Shown: positions 14,835-63,147 of the stretch, piece after piece
How the letters are laid out: the number at the start of each line of letters is the position of its first letter
Position numbering within the stretch: position 1 is the stretch's first letter
Source: Litchfieldia sinesaloumensis
GTDB taxonomy: Bacteria > Bacillota > Bacilli > Bacillales > Bacillaceae_L
Direction of reading: 5' to 3'
NCBI RefSeq assembly: GCF_900156865.1
Contig: NZ_LT732529.1
Span: 2,854,460-2,918,459 of the forward strand
DNA length: 64,000 bases
Position numbers and translations under genes: made by a program
The notes under the pieces: model-generated
What the model saw: only the letters and a program-made list of their open reading frames with translations
Told to the model about the DNA's origin: nothing
Databases searched by the model: none

Positions 14835-17708
14835 TTATTTTGATACGGTTTCTTTTTCTTTTATTAATTCTTTCATTCGCTGACGATCACGCTCTAGAAC
14901 TGGTTTTAAGTAACGGCCTGTGTGGGATGCTTCGATTTTGGTTATCTCTTCAGGTGTACCTGTTCCTAAAAGGGTACCACCTTTGTCTCCGCCCTCTGGT
15001 CCTAAGTCAACGATGTAATCGACTGATTTAATAACATCAAGATTATGCTCAATGACAAGAACTGTATCGCCATTTTCCACTAGTCGTTGTAGAACTTTTA
15101 GCAACCTTGAAATGTCATCTGCATGTAAACCTGTAGTCGGTTCATCTAGAATATAGAACGTTTTTCCATTGGAGCGACGGTGTAACTCTGAGGCAAGTTT
15201 TACACGTTGCGCTTCCCCACCTGATAGCGTTGTTGCTGGTTGACCTAACGTAACATAGCCTAAGCCAACATCAAATAAGGTTTGTAGCTTACGTTTTACT
15301 TTTGGAAGGTTTTCAAAAAAGGAAACCCCTTCCTCTACTGTCATTTCTAAGATATCCGAGATGTTTTTATCTTTGTATTTCACTTCTAATGTTTCTCGGT
15401 TATATCGTTTGCCGTGGCATACCTCACATGGTACATAGACATCAGGAAGGAAGTGCATTTCAATTTTAATGATTCCATCTCCCTTACAGGCTTCACAACG
15501 GCCACCTTTTACGTTGAAACTAAAACGACCTTTCTTATACCCTCTTACTTTTGCTTCGTTCGTATTAGCAAAGAGATCCCGTATATCATCAAACACCCCT
15601 GTGTAGGTAGCTGGATTTGATCGTGGGGTTCTTCCAATTGGAGATTGGTCGATATTGATGACCTTTTCTAGATGCTCTAATCCCTTAATTGCTTTGTGTT
15701 CACCAGGTTTGCTTTTAGCGCGATTTAATTTTTGTGCTAGTGATTTTTGTAAAATCTCATTAACTAACGTACTTTTTCCCGAACCGGAAACTCCTGTAAC
15801 AGCAATGAACATGCCCAGTGGGAATTTAACAGATACGTTCTTTAAGTTATTTTCATTTGCTCCGATAATTTCTATAAATCGTCCATCTGGCTGCTTTCGT
15901 TCAAATGGAAGTGGTATAAACTTTTTACCTGATAGATATTGTCCAGTTAATGAATTAGGGTCTTCCATTACTTCTTTTGGCGCTCCCGCTGAGACAATTT
16001 GTCCACCATGACTACCAGCACCTGGCCCAATATCAATTAAGTAATCTGCAGCAAGCATGGTATCTTCGTCATGCTCAACGACAATTAGTGTATTTCCAAC
16101 ATCTCTCATTGTTTTAAGTGTGTCAATGAGTCGGTCATTGTCACGTTGGTGTAGACCGATGGATGGCTCGTCCAAAATGTAGAGGACACCAGTTAAACGT
16201 GATCCAATTTGAGTAGCAAGTCGAATTCGTTGAGCTTCGCCACCTGATAGTGTTCCTGCTGCACGGCTTAGTGATAGATAATCAAGCCCAACATTCACCA
16301 GGAATCCTAGTCTCTCTTTAATTTCTTGGAAGATAAGGTAACCTATCTGCATATCTTTGTCAGATAAATGAATGTTAGTAATGAAATCCAAAGCCTCATT
16401 TATTGATAATTCTGTAACATTAGATATATGTTTACCAGATATTAAAACTGCTAATGTTTCTTTTTTCAGACGATGACCTTTACAGCTTGGACAAGCCTTC
16501 TCAGCCATGTACTTTTCCATCTGTTCACGGATATAGTCAGAGCTCGTCTCTTTGTATCGTCTTTCTACATTTCGTAGGACACCTTCGAAAGCAATATAAT
16601 TTTCTCGTTTCTGACCGAAATCATTTTCATAGTAGAAATAAATTTCCTCACCGTCACTTCCATAAAGAACTTTATCCATTAAATGCTTTGGAATGTCCTT
16701 TACAGGGATGTCCATATCAATTCCATAATGAATACAAACAGATTCTAATAATTGTGGGTAATATTGAGAACTTGTTGGCTCCCATGGCGCAATTGCATGC
16801 TTTCGAAGAGATAAATCCCAATCTGGAATCACAAGTTCTGGATCAACCTCAAGCTTACTTCCTAAGCCATCACAGTCCGGGCAAGCCCCGAATGGACTAT
16901 TAAAAGAAAACATGCGTGGCTCAAGTTCACCGATGGAAAAGCCACATAGTGGACAGGAATGGAGTTCACTAAACAAGAGCTCCTCTTCTCCAATCACATC
17001 AATAATGACCTTACCTTCACCGAGACGTAGTGCTGCTTCAAGGGAGTCTGAAAGTCTAGCTGAAACCCCATCTTTTACTACGATTCTGTCAATGACCACT
17101 TCTATTGAGTGCTTTTTATTTTTCTCAAGCTCTATATCATCCGATAGTTCACGCATTTCTCCGTCGACGCGAATTCTTACATAGCCTTGTTTTTTAATAT
17201 CCTCTAAGACCTTCACATGGGCTCCTTTTCGCCCTGAAACAATAGGAGCCAAAACCTGCAACTTTGTCCTATCTGGATATTCTAAAATCCGATCCACCAT
17301 TTGTTCAACGGTTTGTGAAGTGATTTCGATCCCATGGTTAGGACAAACCGGTTTACCAACACGCGCGTATAATAATCGTAAATAATCATAAACCTCGGTA
17401 ACTGTTCCAACCGTTGATCTTGGATTACGACTAGTCGTTTTCTGGTCGATTGAAATTGCTGGAGAAAGTCCTTCAATTGAGTCAACATCCGGTTTATCCA
17501 TTTGTCCTAAAAATTGTCGGGCATATGCAGAGAGGGACTCGACATAGCGTCGTTGCCCTTCAGCATAAATAGTATCAAATGCAAGTGAGGACTTTCCTGA
17601 TCCAGAAAGACCAGTAACAACCACTAATTTATCTCTCGGAATCGTAACATCAATATTTTTTAAATTATGTGCCCTCGCGCCTTTGACGACGATTTTATCC
17701 AATGCCAT
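14835..17708 (-). CDS. uvrA: Excinuclease ABC subunit A
   Basis: DNA damage recognition ATPase of nucleotide excision repair, 957 residues, full length. Two ABC modules are visible: Walker [10 protein letters not shown] near residue 31 and GVSGSGKST in the second half, with signatures [14 protein letters not shown] and [14 protein letters not shown]. Zinc-binding Cys pairs are present (CPLCGF...CPDCDG and CEACKG...CEVCHG). It begins seven bases after uvrB, so the two form one operon. UvrA2 loads UvrB at lesions. Confidence 0.98.
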
Positions 17709-25211: not shown

Positions 25212-25300
25212 CATTCTATAGCAACCCGGCCGCCATAGAGAATTCTCCTTAGGCCCGTGGCTTTGCGTCATCGTTTTTCAACAATTTTGCCTTTTGTATA
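25212..25300 (-). promoter_or_regulatory. Cyclic-di-GMP-I (GEMM-I) riboswitch aptamer
   Basis: Read on the minus strand the element has the full GEMM-I layout: GGCAAAATTGTT-GAAA-AACGAT (stem with GAAA tetraloop), then GACGCAAAGCCACGGGCC, then CCTAAG...TATGG, the 11-nt receptor for the GAAA loop, then GGCCGGGTTGC. The conserved core and the tetraloop-receptor pair together make the assignment strong. It is followed after about 25 bases by a terminator stem. No minus-strand gene follows directly: the next is prfC, over 300 bases on. The preceding minus-strand gene ends only about 55 bases upstream. Confidence 0.88.
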
Positions 25301-25355
25301 GTTTGGTCTTTTATCTATGAAGTATATAATCTATCTTGTTTGTTTTAGTTGTTTT

Positions 25356-26649: not shown

Positions 26650-26729
26650 TTTGCTGTCACTTGATTTAACATGCTGTCGTTTCCCGGGAAATGTTGTCGG
26701 GAATAGAAAATAATGTCGTTATTCCCCCT
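26650..26729. repeat. Diverged 20-bp periodic repeat array (locus D)
   Basis: Four units with TGTC at 26655, 26675, 26695 and 26714, spacing 20, 20 and 19. Unit heads are GCTGTCACT, GCTGTCGTT, GTTGTCGGG and AATGTCGTT. It resembles the TACTGYCACTA arrays at 44.6, 56.1 and 62.0 kb but is more degenerate. The remaining sequence of this 260-base gap is AT-rich without other signals except the terminator. Confidence 0.55.
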
Positions 26730-44593: not shown

Positions 44594-44697
44594 TATACTG
44601 CTGCTGATTTATTATTTTACTGTCGCTATTCTGATTTTACTGGCACTATCCTGGATTTACTGCCACTAACCAGATTTACTGCCTCTATCAAACTATA
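44594..44697. repeat. 20-bp periodic repeat array (locus A)
   Basis: Five units with ACTG at 44597, 44619, 44639, 44659 and 44678 (spacing 22, 20, 20, 19). Unit heads: TATACTGCTGCT, TTTACTGTCGCT, TTTACTGGCACT, TTTACTGCCACT, TTTACTGCCTCT. It lies in the divergent gap between the YnfA and YhbS-like genes (44519-44889). The rest of that gap holds only a 17-codon ORF with a good ribosome site (44808-44861). Confidence 0.7.
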
Positions 44698-55805: not shown

Positions 55806-56135
55806 ATGGCAACAATTGAGGATTTTTTAAAATTGGATATTCGAATTGGCACTGTTGTTAAAGCTGAACCATTTCCTGAAGCAAGAGTACCTGCAATTAA
55901 ATTAGAAATTGATTTTGGAGAGATTGGTATCAAACAGTCTTCCGCCCAAATCACGAAAAGATATAAACCAGAGCAACTTATTGGAAATCAAGTCGTTGCA
56001 GTCGTTAACTTTCCTCCACGTCGTATTGCTGGTTTTAAATCCGAAGTATTGGTCATCGGAGGTGTCCCCGAAGAAGGTGACGTTATCCTTTTAAAGCCAG
56101 ATCAACCTGTTAAAAATGGAACACCAGTAGCATAA
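55806..56135 (+). CDS. csaA: Chaperone CsaA (tRNA-binding domain protein)
   Basis: Single OB-fold tRNA-binding domain of 109 residues: [32 protein letters not shown] and [25 protein letters not shown]. subtilis CsaA has chaperone activity and binds SecA and preproteins. ATG 55806 behind ATGGAGG. The stop codon runs directly into a repeat array. Confidence 0.95.
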
Positions 56136-56193
56136 TACTGTCACTATCGAGAAAATACTGTCACTATCCGAAAAATACTGTCACTAACAGAAA
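56134..56193. repeat. 20-bp tandem repeat array (locus B)
   Basis: Three exact-period units with the invariant 13-mer AATACTGTCACTA at 56134, 56154 and 56174, each followed by a seven-base tail (TCGAGAA, TCCGAAA, ACAGAAA). It begins on the csaA stop codon and lies between convergent genes. Confidence 0.85.
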
Positions 56194-56248
56194 TAGGCGC
56201 AAAATCAGACGTTCAAAGCCCCAAGATTATGTCCTTGGGGCCTCAGAA

Positions 56249-57103
56249 TTACTTCACTGGAATCCAAATCTCTGAATAATAAGCAGGGTCAGATGGGTTA
56301 CCAGCAGGGTAGAGTTCAAATTCTGCCGTTCCCGCATATTCATACCCACTTGATGGAAACCATTCTGAATAGATCTTTTTCCACGTGTCCTGGATGGCCT
56401 GAGGCATTGCTCCGTGGACTTCGAATACAGCCCATTTTGAAGCAGGTATGTCTAAAATATCAAACGTACCCGAAGTTCCGTCTACATTTTCTACCGCTAC
56501 CCAGTAATCAATCGTATTTTCTTTTGGTTCACTTACACAAACACCTAAGATGCCTCCAATGTCTCCTTTCATCATTGGAATCAATGAATCACACGTCCCG
56601 TCTGTATTCACTTCCACCCATAACTTTGTAATCCCATCTTGATGTTCATCATTCACACATGAAAAAGTACGTTTGACTCCAACTGCTTTAAATCCTTCCT
56701 TCTCAACAATTCGATACTTCACTGGATTTGCTCCTTTCAGACTCACCTGGATCACCAGGCGGCTATAAGATTGCAGCTTTCCAATCCCCTTTCGGATGTC
56801 GCTCGGCGTTACACCATGCTGTTTTCGAAAGGCTTTTGTGAAAGCCTCGGGAGTGTCGTAGCCGTATTTGTAAGCGAGATCAATAATCTTCTTATTCGTT
56901 CTCAAGAGTTCTTCGGCAGCAAGTGTTAACCTTCGCCGACGGAGGTAATCACCTACTGTAATATCCGTCAAAATCGAAAACGTGCGTTGAAAATGAAAGG
57001 GAGAAGCGTTTGCTCGTTTTGCAATGTCTTCGATTGATACGTCTTCAAGCATATGATCCTCCATATAATCAATTGCATGCTGTAATGACTCTAGCCAACT
57101 CAT
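56249..57103 (-). CDS. AraC-family regulator with GyrI-like effector domain
   Basis: About 284 residues. Residues 1-105 are an AraC DNA-binding domain with two HTH motifs (VSIEDIAKRANASPFHFQRTF and KIIDLAYKYGYDTPEAFTKAFRK). The remainder is a GyrI-like small-molecule-binding domain (YRIVEKEGFKAVGVKRTF to EFELYPAGNPSDP). ATG 57103 follows AAGGAG at eight bases. Target genes are not evident from context. Confidence 0.92.
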   Translation of the reverse strand: MSWLESLQHAIDYMEDHMLEDVSIEDIAKRANASPFHFQRTFSILTDITVGDYLRRRRLTLAAEELLRTNKKIIDLAYKYGYDTPEAFTKAFRKQHGVTPSDIRKGIGKLQSYSRLVIQVSLKGANPVKYRIVEKEGFKAVGVKRTFSCVNDEHQDGITKLWVEVNTDGTCDSLIPMMKGDIGGILGVCVSEPKENTIDYWVAVENVDGTSGTFDILDIPASKWAVFEVHGAMPQAIQDTWKKIYSEWFPSSGYEYAGTAEFELYPAGNPSDPAYYSEIWIPVK

Positions 57104-57153
57104 TCTCCTCACTCCTTGCCTTCATTTTAACTTGTGTATGATTTATCATCCGG

Positions 57154-59556: not shown

Positions 59557-59831
59557 TTGATTTCATCGTTCTAATCATGTAGTATACAAATACAAGCTAC
59601 ATTGTACGTAATCATAATAAAGTTTAACCTTTGAACTGAAATAGGGAGTTTAACATTGAAACTGGAATGGCAGGCCTTCGTCCATGGCGACTTGAAGGAC
59701 ATACAGGAACGTTTCTGCAAACACCCACTTTGAGGAGTGGTGGTTTTAAACTTTCTTAGGGTATTACGGCAATTGTGGCTTTTCCTAATTTGACGCCAAT
59801 CCATTTTCCTACAGGAGAGTGGATTTTTTAT
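59557..59831 (+). ncRNA. Candidate structured noncoding RNA
   Basis: A plausible promoter (TTGATT at 59557, 17-base spacer, TAGTAT at 59580) is followed by about 240 nt ending in a 12-bp terminator stem (AATCCATTTTCC / GGAGAGTGGATT, with wobbles) and T6. Within it AAAGTTTAA-CC (59619-59629) pairs with GG-TTTTAAACTTT (59742-59754) to close a domain of some 135 nt that contains further hairpins. No long frame exists; the only ORF with a ribosome site codes for 25 residues (TTG 59656). A 6S-like RNA is one possibility I could not confirm. Confidence 0.4.
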
Positions 59832-59900: not shown

Positions 59901-59974
59901 GTCCCAGTAGCTCAGTAGGATAGAGCGACAGCCTCCTAAGCTGTAGGTCGTAGGTTCGATTCCTATCTGGGACG
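59901..59974 (+). tRNA. tRNA-Arg (anticodon CCT)
   Basis: Cloverleaf is complete: acceptor GTCCCAG / CTGGGAC, D-arm with AGCTCAGTAGGATAGAGC, anticodon stem ACAGC / GCTGT enclosing CTCCTAA (anticodon CCT, reads AGG), and T-arm with GGTTCGATTCC. CCA is not encoded. It is a single gene followed by a terminator. Confidence 0.95.
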
Positions 59975-61517: not shown

Positions 61518-61940
61518 TTAATTATCTGGATAAAGTTCTTGTAAAAAGGTTACAGACTGCTTGATTAGCTCTTTTAGCACCTCAACATCAATATCCGCCA
61601 ACTTGTTAATGTAGACACACGCCTTTCCAGTTGTGTGCTTACCAAACCTTTCGAGGAGCTCTTCTCGCTTCGGGTCACCCGGTGCAAAATACAAACTAAT
61701 CTTTGCCTTGCGCGGTGAAAAACCAACAAGCGGAGCATCTCCCTCATGGCCTGAGGCATATTTGTAATGATAAGAACCAAACCCAATAATACTCGTCCCC
61801 CACATTTTTGCCGGGTACCCGGTCGTTTCGGTGAAGATGTCTAGTATTTTATAGGCATCCTCTTTCTTCTTAGGATTGTTCACCATTTCAATAAATTCAA
61901 TAACACTCGCATCGTTTTCTTTTGTTTTCAATTCATACAT
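61518..61940 (-). CDS. DUF1801 domain protein
   Basis: Protein of 140 residues: VIEFIEMVNNPKKKEDAYKILDIF, WGTSIIGFGSYHYKYASGHEGDAPLVGFSPRK and YLYINKLADID-like end are typical of DUF1801 (YdhG/YdeI-like) proteins, function unknown. Single gene. Confidence 0.87.
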   Translation of the reverse strand: MYELKTKENDASVIEFIEMVNNPKKKEDAYKILDIFTETTGYPAKMWGTSIIGFGSYHYKYASGHEGDAPLVGFSPRKAKISLYFAPGDPKREELLERFGKHTTGKACVYINKLADIDVEVLKELIKQSVTFLQELYPDN

Positions 61941-62037
61941 TTCAATCGGCCTCCTTGCTAGTATGTAGGATTGACACTTTTACATACTTCAAGACGTGGG
62001 GTTCGGATTCCTGCTTTTGATTTGGGTGTATTTGCGC

Positions 62038-62130
62038 AGTGGCAGTATTTCAGAATTAGCGGCAGTATTTTTTAGATAGTGGCAGTAAATATGATATAGT
62101 GGCAGTATTTTACAATTAGTGGCAGTAAGT
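62038..62130. repeat. 20-bp tandem repeat array (locus C)
   Basis: Five units of exactly 20 bp with CAGT at 62043, 62063, 62083, 62103 and 62123. Unit heads are AGTGGCAGTA (four) and AGCGGCAGTA (one), each followed by a variable 10-base tail. The reverse complement TACTGCCACT matches the cores of loci A and B. It fills most of the gap between the DUF1801 and NERD genes. Confidence 0.85.
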
Positions 62131-62148: not shown

Positions 62149-63147
62149 TTAGAGTAAGTTGACTTCTGATTTTAGGTCTTGGTCTTTTAAAATGTATGTT
62201 CTATCCTTGTATGAACCTTTATAATCTAAATTCAACGAAGATAAGATGTTAGTTGCAGTAGAAACCGACTCAATATCAAGAAAATCACGTAATCGTCGAT
62301 TCGTAATTGAATTTCCATAGAGTAAAATATATTCATGTAGGGATTTAATATATGCTTTTGATGAAGAATAATGACAATTTGGACAGCTCCACGATCTGTG
62401 TTTTCTAACCATTGGGAGAAAGTCACATTTAGGACAGCGCACACCTTTAATGAGTTCGTGCTCTTTTATACCGTAATGCGCCAGGATATCGTGATCAAAA
62501 GGCGTATGTTTCTTTAAGAGCATTTTTGAAAGTTTTTGAAGTTGCTTTTTGTCTAAGACCTTATTGCGATTCCTTTTTTCAAACAACTCGATTTTGGAAA
62601 TAAAACTAGGACTTTTAATTATTTTATGAGAGTATTTAAAGTCTTTACTCGCGTCAAGAATCGCATTGGGATTAGTGAAAACAACTAGAGTTTCAATTGG
62701 GGGAACAGTGGGCAATTTGAAGGTTTCAAGGAGTTTGCTTAGCTGAAATTGATGTCTATTGATCTGCGCAACTGGGCATTGAAATGATTTCCTCGTATCT
62801 TGGTAGGTTTGAATCAGTTGATTAAACGTATCATCAAAATATAATTCGCCGCGATAATTTTTCGCATCAATGATAACGATGAATGCTGGGTTAACCAGTA
62901 GGATGTCAATTTCAAAAAAGTGCTCACCGGAGATATCAGGTAGACGAAGATTGTGGAAGATTGTGTAGTTCTTTTCTTTCAAGAAGGTTAGGTGATACCT
63001 TAAAGATTGCTCGCCACGGTACCCTGACATCCTTCTGCCAAATTCATCGCTAATTTCTTGGTATTTCGGGTACGATTTTAGCAATCTTTTAAGCACGACC
63101 TCTATCTTATTAACGCGTATAGGGATTTCAAGTTCTTTTTGTCTCAT
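62149..63147 (-). CDS. NERD-domain protein with zinc ribbon
   Basis: Protein of 332 residues. Residues 40-160 form a nuclease-related domain: GYRGEQSLRYHLTFL, then EIDILLVNPAFIVIIDAKNYRGELY with the Asp...Asp-x-Lys nuclease pattern. A zinc ribbon follows near residue 240 (CPKCDF...CPNCHY) and a helical C-terminus. Family role is unproven; processing of DNA or RNA is inferred. ATG 63147. A Spo0A-like box overlaps the upstream region. Confidence 0.87.
   Translation of the reverse strand: MRQKELEIPIRVNKIEVVLKRLLKSYPKYQEISDEFGRRMSGYRGEQSLRYHLTFLKEKNYTIFHNLRLPDISGEHFFEIDILLVNPAFIVIIDAKNYRGELYFDDTFNQLIQTYQDTRKSFQCPVAQINRHQFQLSKLLETFKLPTVPPIETLVVFTNPNAILDASKDFKYSHKIIKSPSFISKIELFEKRNRNKVLDKKQLQKLSKMLLKKHTPFDHDILAHYGIKEHELIKGVRCPKCDFLPMVRKHRSWSCPNCHYSSSKAYIKSLHEYILLYGNSITNRRLRDFLDIESVSTATNILSSLNLDYKGSYKDRTYILKDQDLKSEVNLL

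Follow-up and report, generated by a model that had tools for sequence, protein, structure and literature searches.

Intergenic arrays of 20-bp units at gene ends in Fredinandcohnia, possible five-site platforms for a DNA-binding protein

Fredinandcohnia genomes carry intergenic arrays in which an 11-bp core recurs every 20 bp, and these arrays stand preferentially at gene 3' ends and between convergent genes, seldom between divergent ones. Three of them stand in the window, i.e. the whole 64,000-nucleotide stretch of DNA analysed here, and belong to the family that we call type I (core TACTGYCACTA); a second family, type II, comprises 20-bp arrays with a TTATGGCYAATAA-like core. The gaps outlast the cores, in that some of them hold another core in a related species. 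Comparing the sequences, we tentatively propose, with less than even confidence, that the arrays serve as five-site platforms for a sequence-specific DNA-binding protein at gene ends, where it may block read-through.

Arrays of the window and of the genus

The first-pass annotation had described five units spaced at exactly 20 bp at locus C, and these are present (Table 1), their cores reading in order TACTGCCACTG, TACTGCCGCTA and then three times TACTGCCACTA. The arrays that it placed at 56.1 kb and 44.6 kb were borne out as well: the first unit of array B starts directly after the TAA stop codon of the gene upstream of it, and array A is the sole type I array seen in a divergent gap, and was seen only in the genome of the window (G000). 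A fourth array claimed at 26.65 kb is doubtful, as its in-phase units deviate from the core by 2 and 4 mismatches, in one case by more than the cut-off of 4 and in one by 3, and the stretch scores under the threshold of the lag scan. Within this degenerate stretch, positions 26680-26691 read TTTCCCGGGAAA, which resembles the Noc-binding sequence. The gaps of arrays B and C correspond to gap groups 3 and 4 of the classification below, each common to five genomes. Rfam at gathering thresholds gave no match at the arrays, and terminators near arrays were noticed only by eye.

Table 1. Positions of arrays and neighbouring features in the window and, in the last row, of two arrays in a stretch of a related genome
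Feature	Position	Strand	Description
Array C	cores 62037-62127	minus	five units, period exactly 20 bp, core TACTGCCACTA
Array B	56136-56186	plus	three perfect TACTGTCACTA units
Array A	44596-44687	plus	five units, mismatches 3, 1, 1, 0, 1
Degenerate array-like stretch, doubtful	26652-26721	plus	in-phase units with 2-4 or more mismatches
NERD-domain gene	62149-63147	minus	stop codon 21 bp from array C, which lies downstream in the sense direction
DUF1801 gene	61518-61940	minus	downstream of array C, start 96 bp away
Putative tRNA-binding-domain gene	55806-56135	plus	upstream of array B
AraC/GyrI-like regulator gene	56249-57112	minus	convergent partner of the array B gap
GC-rich hairpin	56217-56242		between array B and the convergent gene; seen by eye, absent from the terminator scan
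6S RNA and tRNA	59591-59785 and 59901-59974	plus	Rfam; between arrays B and C
c-di-GMP-I riboswitch	25217-25301	minus	Rfam
Two 21-bp arrays of G001	L357:8222-8357 and 15804-16251	opposite directions	core TATCGGACA / TGTCCGATA

A chance origin of the window arrays is ruled out, because the window has 13 matches to the core TACTGYCACTA with at most one mismatch where 1.11 would be expected (none of 100 shuffles reached 13), because a lag scan over lags 13-30 gave three hits at lag 20 and none at the 17 other lags, and because 200 first-order Markov simulations of the window gave no lag-20 hit.

The first-pass annotation had also posited that arrays sharing one core and a 20-bp period form a dispersed family, an idea to be given up if genome-wide counts did not exceed chance. 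Such a family is found genome-wide and genus-wide. In G000 (about 4.55-4.56 Mb) the paired core occurs 13 times and its reversed control not at all, while the single core occurs 33 times against 9 for the control, hits outside arrays being at about control level. G000 holds 11 type I arrays. The paired core is present in eight of nine Fredinandcohnia genomes and in none of eight genomes of three other genera of the family; allowing up to 3 mismatches returned the same eight genomes, with no control hit in all nine. The one Fredinandcohnia genome lacking the type I core is G004.

We assembled 57 loci, i.e. 54 stretches (mostly of about 8 kb) around pattern hits and the three window arrays, and 56 of them yielded an array of at least two units, with 275 units in total and a spacing of exactly 20 bp in 189 of 219 instances. 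By flank similarity the 56 arrays fall into 15 gap groups, 13 of which are common to at least two genomes. Translations of the flanking genes showed them to be ordinary and unrelated in function. The NifU 3' gap carries arrays in G001, G002 and G003; in G000 (L174, G000:C3:2547449) it holds one intact core with degenerate neighbours, apparently a decayed array.

Unit structure and renewal

Each unit consists of an 11-bp core and a biased tail of 9 bp. Orthologous arrays differ at 169 of 3568 core positions (4.7%, position 6 apart), at 645 of 2308 tail positions (28%) and at 1784 of 9766 non-coding flank positions (18%), the core rate being biased downwards in that the arrays were found by their core; the genome pairs, moreover, are not independent. 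Within this ascertainment bias the core is kept against drift, as would be expected of an array of protein-binding sites. When the anchoring unit pair was removed from each array, 134 of 163 units had 0-1 mismatches, counting only units with at most 3. One period beyond the array ends the sequence is near random (mean mismatches 6.2 and 6.7 vs 6.6), and 7 of 56 positions one period upstream have only 4 mismatches; these are perhaps decayed units. The tail had been described as freely varying; it is AT-rich with biased positions and mostly ends in AA or TT.

At position 6 of the core 97% of units have C or T, and 137 of 356 orthologous comparisons show a difference there; the other core changes comprise 74 transitions and 41 transversions. 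Units with T at position 6 precede those with C in 13 of 15 single-switch type I arrays, a weak tendency that by gap amounts to 7 T-first, 2 C-first and one gap in both orders. A near-dyad core of 11 bases with a central mismatch, TANNGNCNNTA, fits type I, type II and the TACGGNCRTTA family, and the other families not clearly.

The number of units has a preferred value. Type I arrays have a mode of five (19 of 56 arrays) and range from 2 to 11 units, and type II arrays have exactly five in 17 of 22 distinct cases, counting arrays of at least three units and including orthologues. In type II the dinucleotide GC comes after the last unit of 18 of 22 arrays but after only 3 of 83 internal units; in type I the last unit is followed by AC or GC in 33 of 56 arrays, compared with 21 of 219 internal units, indicating that both families share one direction and a defined end. 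Outside the arrays no clearly conserved sequence was seen apart from this GC end rule; upstream of type II arrays there is a weaker G column in register with the unit.

Some arrays seem to have been rebuilt in place, because between G002 and G001 all five units of groups 3 and 4 switch position 6 jointly and the tails change at 11 of 37 and 16 of 36 positions. Switches of this kind would also suit satellite-like or selfish repeats without host function that are renewed by duplication, so that their core is kept by renewal and not by use, and the same explanation would accommodate the many gaps that are empty in related genomes, the wide range of type I unit numbers, the degenerate remnant in the NifU gap of G000 and the general tolerance of inserts away from promoters, where the arrays lie. 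We nevertheless consider it unlikely, if a serious rival: tails differ within an array (128 of 189 nine-base tails are distinct), so that the units are not recent copies; a fixed number of five units and an end rule are unexpected from slippage; and the arrays have neither a shared flank nor an inverted end. Copying between loci, too, found no support, as non-orthologous tails are as similar within genomes as between them (P = 0.48).

Gap position, strand and exchange of cores

With genes taken as simple longest-frame calls, by which individual gap labels may be wrong, the majority labels of the 16 type I gaps of the genus are convergent in 7, sense and antisense in 4 each and divergent in 1 (that of array A); this count omits five gaps outside the genus, and labels differ between species in two gaps. 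Type II, under a stricter filter, occupies 14 gaps (9 sense, 4 convergent, 1 antisense and none divergent), and its 50 unmerged loci are 25 sense, 22 convergent, 3 antisense and none divergent. At baseline, 15 convergent and 29 divergent gaps were counted among 159 in G000, 15 and 32 among 127 in G004, and 3 and 8 among 42 in the window. Position relative to promoters, which the first-pass annotation had held not to be constant, is thus biased, with divergent gaps rare. The bias would also suit a simple tolerance of repeats at a distance from promoters.

The direction of the arrays bears on a possible element at the RNA level, transcribed in 3' UTRs and binding a protein or a small RNA as a sponge, termination site or decay site. 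The sense orientation of most type II arrays after a gene agrees with it, as do the folds of the three type I arrays modelled as TACTG-direction RNA, each of which has less structure than its shuffles (z 1.73, 1.02 and 2.60), and the variable core positions, which are mostly C/T or A/G. Type I, however, is antisense as often as sense, and neither the type II strands (z -1.47 and -0.41) nor the opposite type I strand (z -0.89) are unusually structured relative to shuffles. An RNA partner with a perfect complement to the core was rejected: isolated cores in G000 are at control level, so no other perfect 11-base partner stands out. Rfam, as noted, is also silent at the arrays. We regard an RNA element as rather improbable, although type II may have an RNA role.

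Flanks alone were used to search G006 and G007, giving 28 matches of which 24 were examined, four weak paralogue-like matches of one piece being omitted. Type I arrays were present in 13 of the 24 gaps, including one from which its own query piece had been taken and another with a single intact core. Five of the 11 gaps devoid of type I hold type II arrays, read from the sequence (the lag scan at threshold recovers three of these), and no array could be seen by eye in the remaining six. The type II pair has 91 occurrences in seven of the nine genus genomes, and none in eight other genomes of the family or in any control. Scanning 522 kb of array-biased sequence (82 loci) gave 53 hits at lag 20 and 0-3 at each of the other lags between 12 and 33. 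Modules of type I and type II are adjacent within some gaps, among them L138, L148 and L132, and in L176 two type II-like units are in phase with type I units.

G004 is free of both the type I and the type II cores and has at least four other array families. Among 260 kb scanned, seven hits at lag 20 had the cores TACGGNCRTTA, TTCRGCGTTASC, GATATWTGCRCGYTC and GCGYGCATWTWTYC, and eight hits at other lags were partly echoes of lag-20 arrays or coding-like repeats. One G004 array follows the 3' end of leuS, a place that holds type I in G006; the gene on the far side seems different. Scanning 100 kb of G001 revealed one type II array and two 21-bp arrays with the core TATCGGACA (Table 1). A spaced 400-kb sample of G000 contained one lag-20 array, in a stretch picked for its type II match, as against 13 hits at lag 18 (threshold 18), the scan also detecting coding repeats at multiples of three. 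A long array of 20-bp period with the core GATGCAWAT, containing a masked run, was seen in L156 and L126, at a contig start of G006. The core named by the first-pass annotation is one of several that occur in such gaps.

Beyond the genus, no hit at lag 20 was obtained in 140 kb from three other genera of the family, and the TTCRGCGTTASC pair was found in one of 120 genomes of the order, G100. The first stretches of 14 genomes from other families, together with the stretch around the G100 hit, contained one array in G024 besides that of G100, and 20 more stretches, including seven picked in G024 and G100, added two more G024 arrays and a 21-bp array in G039. Arrays of 20 or 21 bp with other cores thus occur in 2 of the 14 sampled genomes and in G100, across three other families of the order, a frequency that is a rough estimate given the 17-40 kb sampled per genome (120 kb in G024). 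The paired type I core is also present in 55 contig stretches, 46 from Fredinandcohnia or Bacillus and nine from unrelated organisms; among the latter L112 is coding and several are triplet-like, while L096, L097, L108, L115 and L122 resemble non-coding tandem arrays whose core is similar. In these five (L097 and L122 are from Prevotella), TAGTGGCAGTA or TAGTGACAGTA is repeated in tandem at about 20-21 bp. We assume that the similar arrays of unrelated organisms arose by chance among very many tandem repeats. A single viral match to the core pattern was triplet-like.

A putative docking platform and its relation to known systems

In the five-site platform that we propose, each array would be a row of operator-like putative binding sites, with five sites in the canonical module of about 100 bp. 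Modules lie mostly at gene 3' ends, and the bound protein would act as a road-block or insulator, keeping the transcription of one gene out of its neighbour; exchange of the core at one gap would reflect a changed or replaced binding protein. We infer binding by a protein, with DNA rather than RNA as its target, and, because of the gap preference, a block of read-through as its effect. Such a platform would be expected to show what the arrays have: a near-dyad core conserved amid drifting surroundings, a fixed period, a preferred unit number, a defined end, neighbours that share no function and a location at gene ends. The first-pass annotation's reading of the arrays as protein-binding sites remains the best one on this view of the data, with the protein itself a prediction, and no candidate for it was identified in the analysis. 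Several observations count against the platform: the same gap is often empty in related species (6 of the 11 type I-less gaps of G006 and G007); in co-directional gaps type I favours neither direction (4 sense vs 4 antisense); G004 has five arrays with a gene called on either side, and while two are convergent and two co-directional, one is divergent; and a genome with several core families would require as many as several proteins.

The first-pass annotation had further placed a core at every two helical turns on one face of the DNA. Two turns of straight B-DNA take 21 bp, and by arithmetic each site 20 bp on from the last would be rotated about 34 degrees relative to it, barring wrapped or overwound DNA. 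On wrapped DNA a period of 20.0 bp would hold the sites on one face, which would suit sites organising the chromosome, where a nucleoid protein anchors, bends or wraps it and gene ends are merely harmless places. Their dispersal with no common gene function, their occurrence in both orientations in co-directional gaps and the short distance to dnaA, at most 0.95 Mb for 9 of the 11 type I arrays in G000 (arithmetic on coordinates of this 4.55-Mb chromosome only), agree with such a role. It appears unlikely to us, if a serious rival, as type II prefers the sense direction after a gene (9 sense and 1 antisense among 14 gaps), a preference that a pure chromosome site does not need, and as G000 holds only 11 type I arrays. 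RacA, one candidate for such a protein, was rejected as the type I binder, being present in nine of nine genomes, including G004 with its lack of type I.

Terminators are generally held to do most of the work at the ends of bacterial genes. A countable and lineage-specific set of operator-like arrays there would suggest a further layer of transcription or chromosome control. A broader and somewhat doubtful generalisation is that Fredinandcohnia, and probably other Bacillales, use an undescribed class of five-site gene-end modules of about 100 bp, in which the gap and the format (a period of 20 or 21 bp, five sites and a fixed end) persist while the core is swapped between lineages. If true, core swapping would imply a fast-evolving family of binding proteins, e.g. 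a gene-end insulation system of bacterial chromosomes. The arrays are ready bait for the predicted protein, modules can be removed or inverted singly, and since close species have exchanged cores, co-variation could lead to the protein.

Several known identities were examined and rejected. A single-regulon operator array does not agree with unrelated flanking genes and sites mostly at 3' ends. Transposon ends or MITEs were dismissed for want of an inverted partner, a shared flank or an element body, isolated cores being at control level; the bcr and MITE-like repeats of Bacillus cereus resemble the arrays as intergenic repeats of bacilli, but the arrays have no terminal inverted repeats, shared flank or fixed element body. 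CRISPR repeats are about 23-50 bp long, with longer unique spacers and cas genes, whereas here an 11-bp core meets a 9-bp tail and no cas gene was among the Pfam hits of the window proteins.

Plasmid iterons, which are direct repeats of about 17-22 bp with conserved cores and a freer spacer, come close in form, but the arrays are chromosomal and dispersed over unrelated gaps. Chromosomal copies of initiator sites could act as decoys that titrate a plasmid initiator and so exclude plasmids, and lineage-specific cores would suit a changing set of plasmids. We give this very little credence: four arrays had no plasmid match (with the low-complexity filter on, and in a collection from which Fredinandcohnia plasmids may be missing), two had no phage match, no replication initiator was seen among 10 window proteins (Pfam) or the flanking-gene translations read, and the idea does not require a gene-end preference.

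The sites of Noc, ParB and RacA are dispersed near-dyad sites in a Bacillus relative and in this resemble the arrays, which differ in grouping their sites and in having exchangeable cores; the known motifs of these proteins do not match the array cores. Cyanobacterial STRR, which are heptamers, and mycobacterial MIRU are likewise intergenic tandem repeats conserved between strains, but in the arrays the core is kept, the tail drifts within an array and a unit number is preferred. An open-access literature search, mostly of work outside subscription journals, found no description of such arrays, and among the matches listed for papers containing the core strings none was, by its title, on such arrays. 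The arrays also resemble REP and BIME elements, which are likewise short, dispersed, lineage-specific intergenic repeats enriched at gene 3' ends and in convergent gaps. Unlike these, the arrays lack a hairpin palindrome (no fold beyond shuffles in six array strands), were seen with no tag sequence, and consist of units repeated head to tail at a fixed period of 20 bp, in modules of five that share a common end. Because each fails a tested feature, the arrays are not REP, MITE, CRISPR or iteron elements; they belong with the dispersed intergenic repeats, and there is a fair chance that they form a class of their own.
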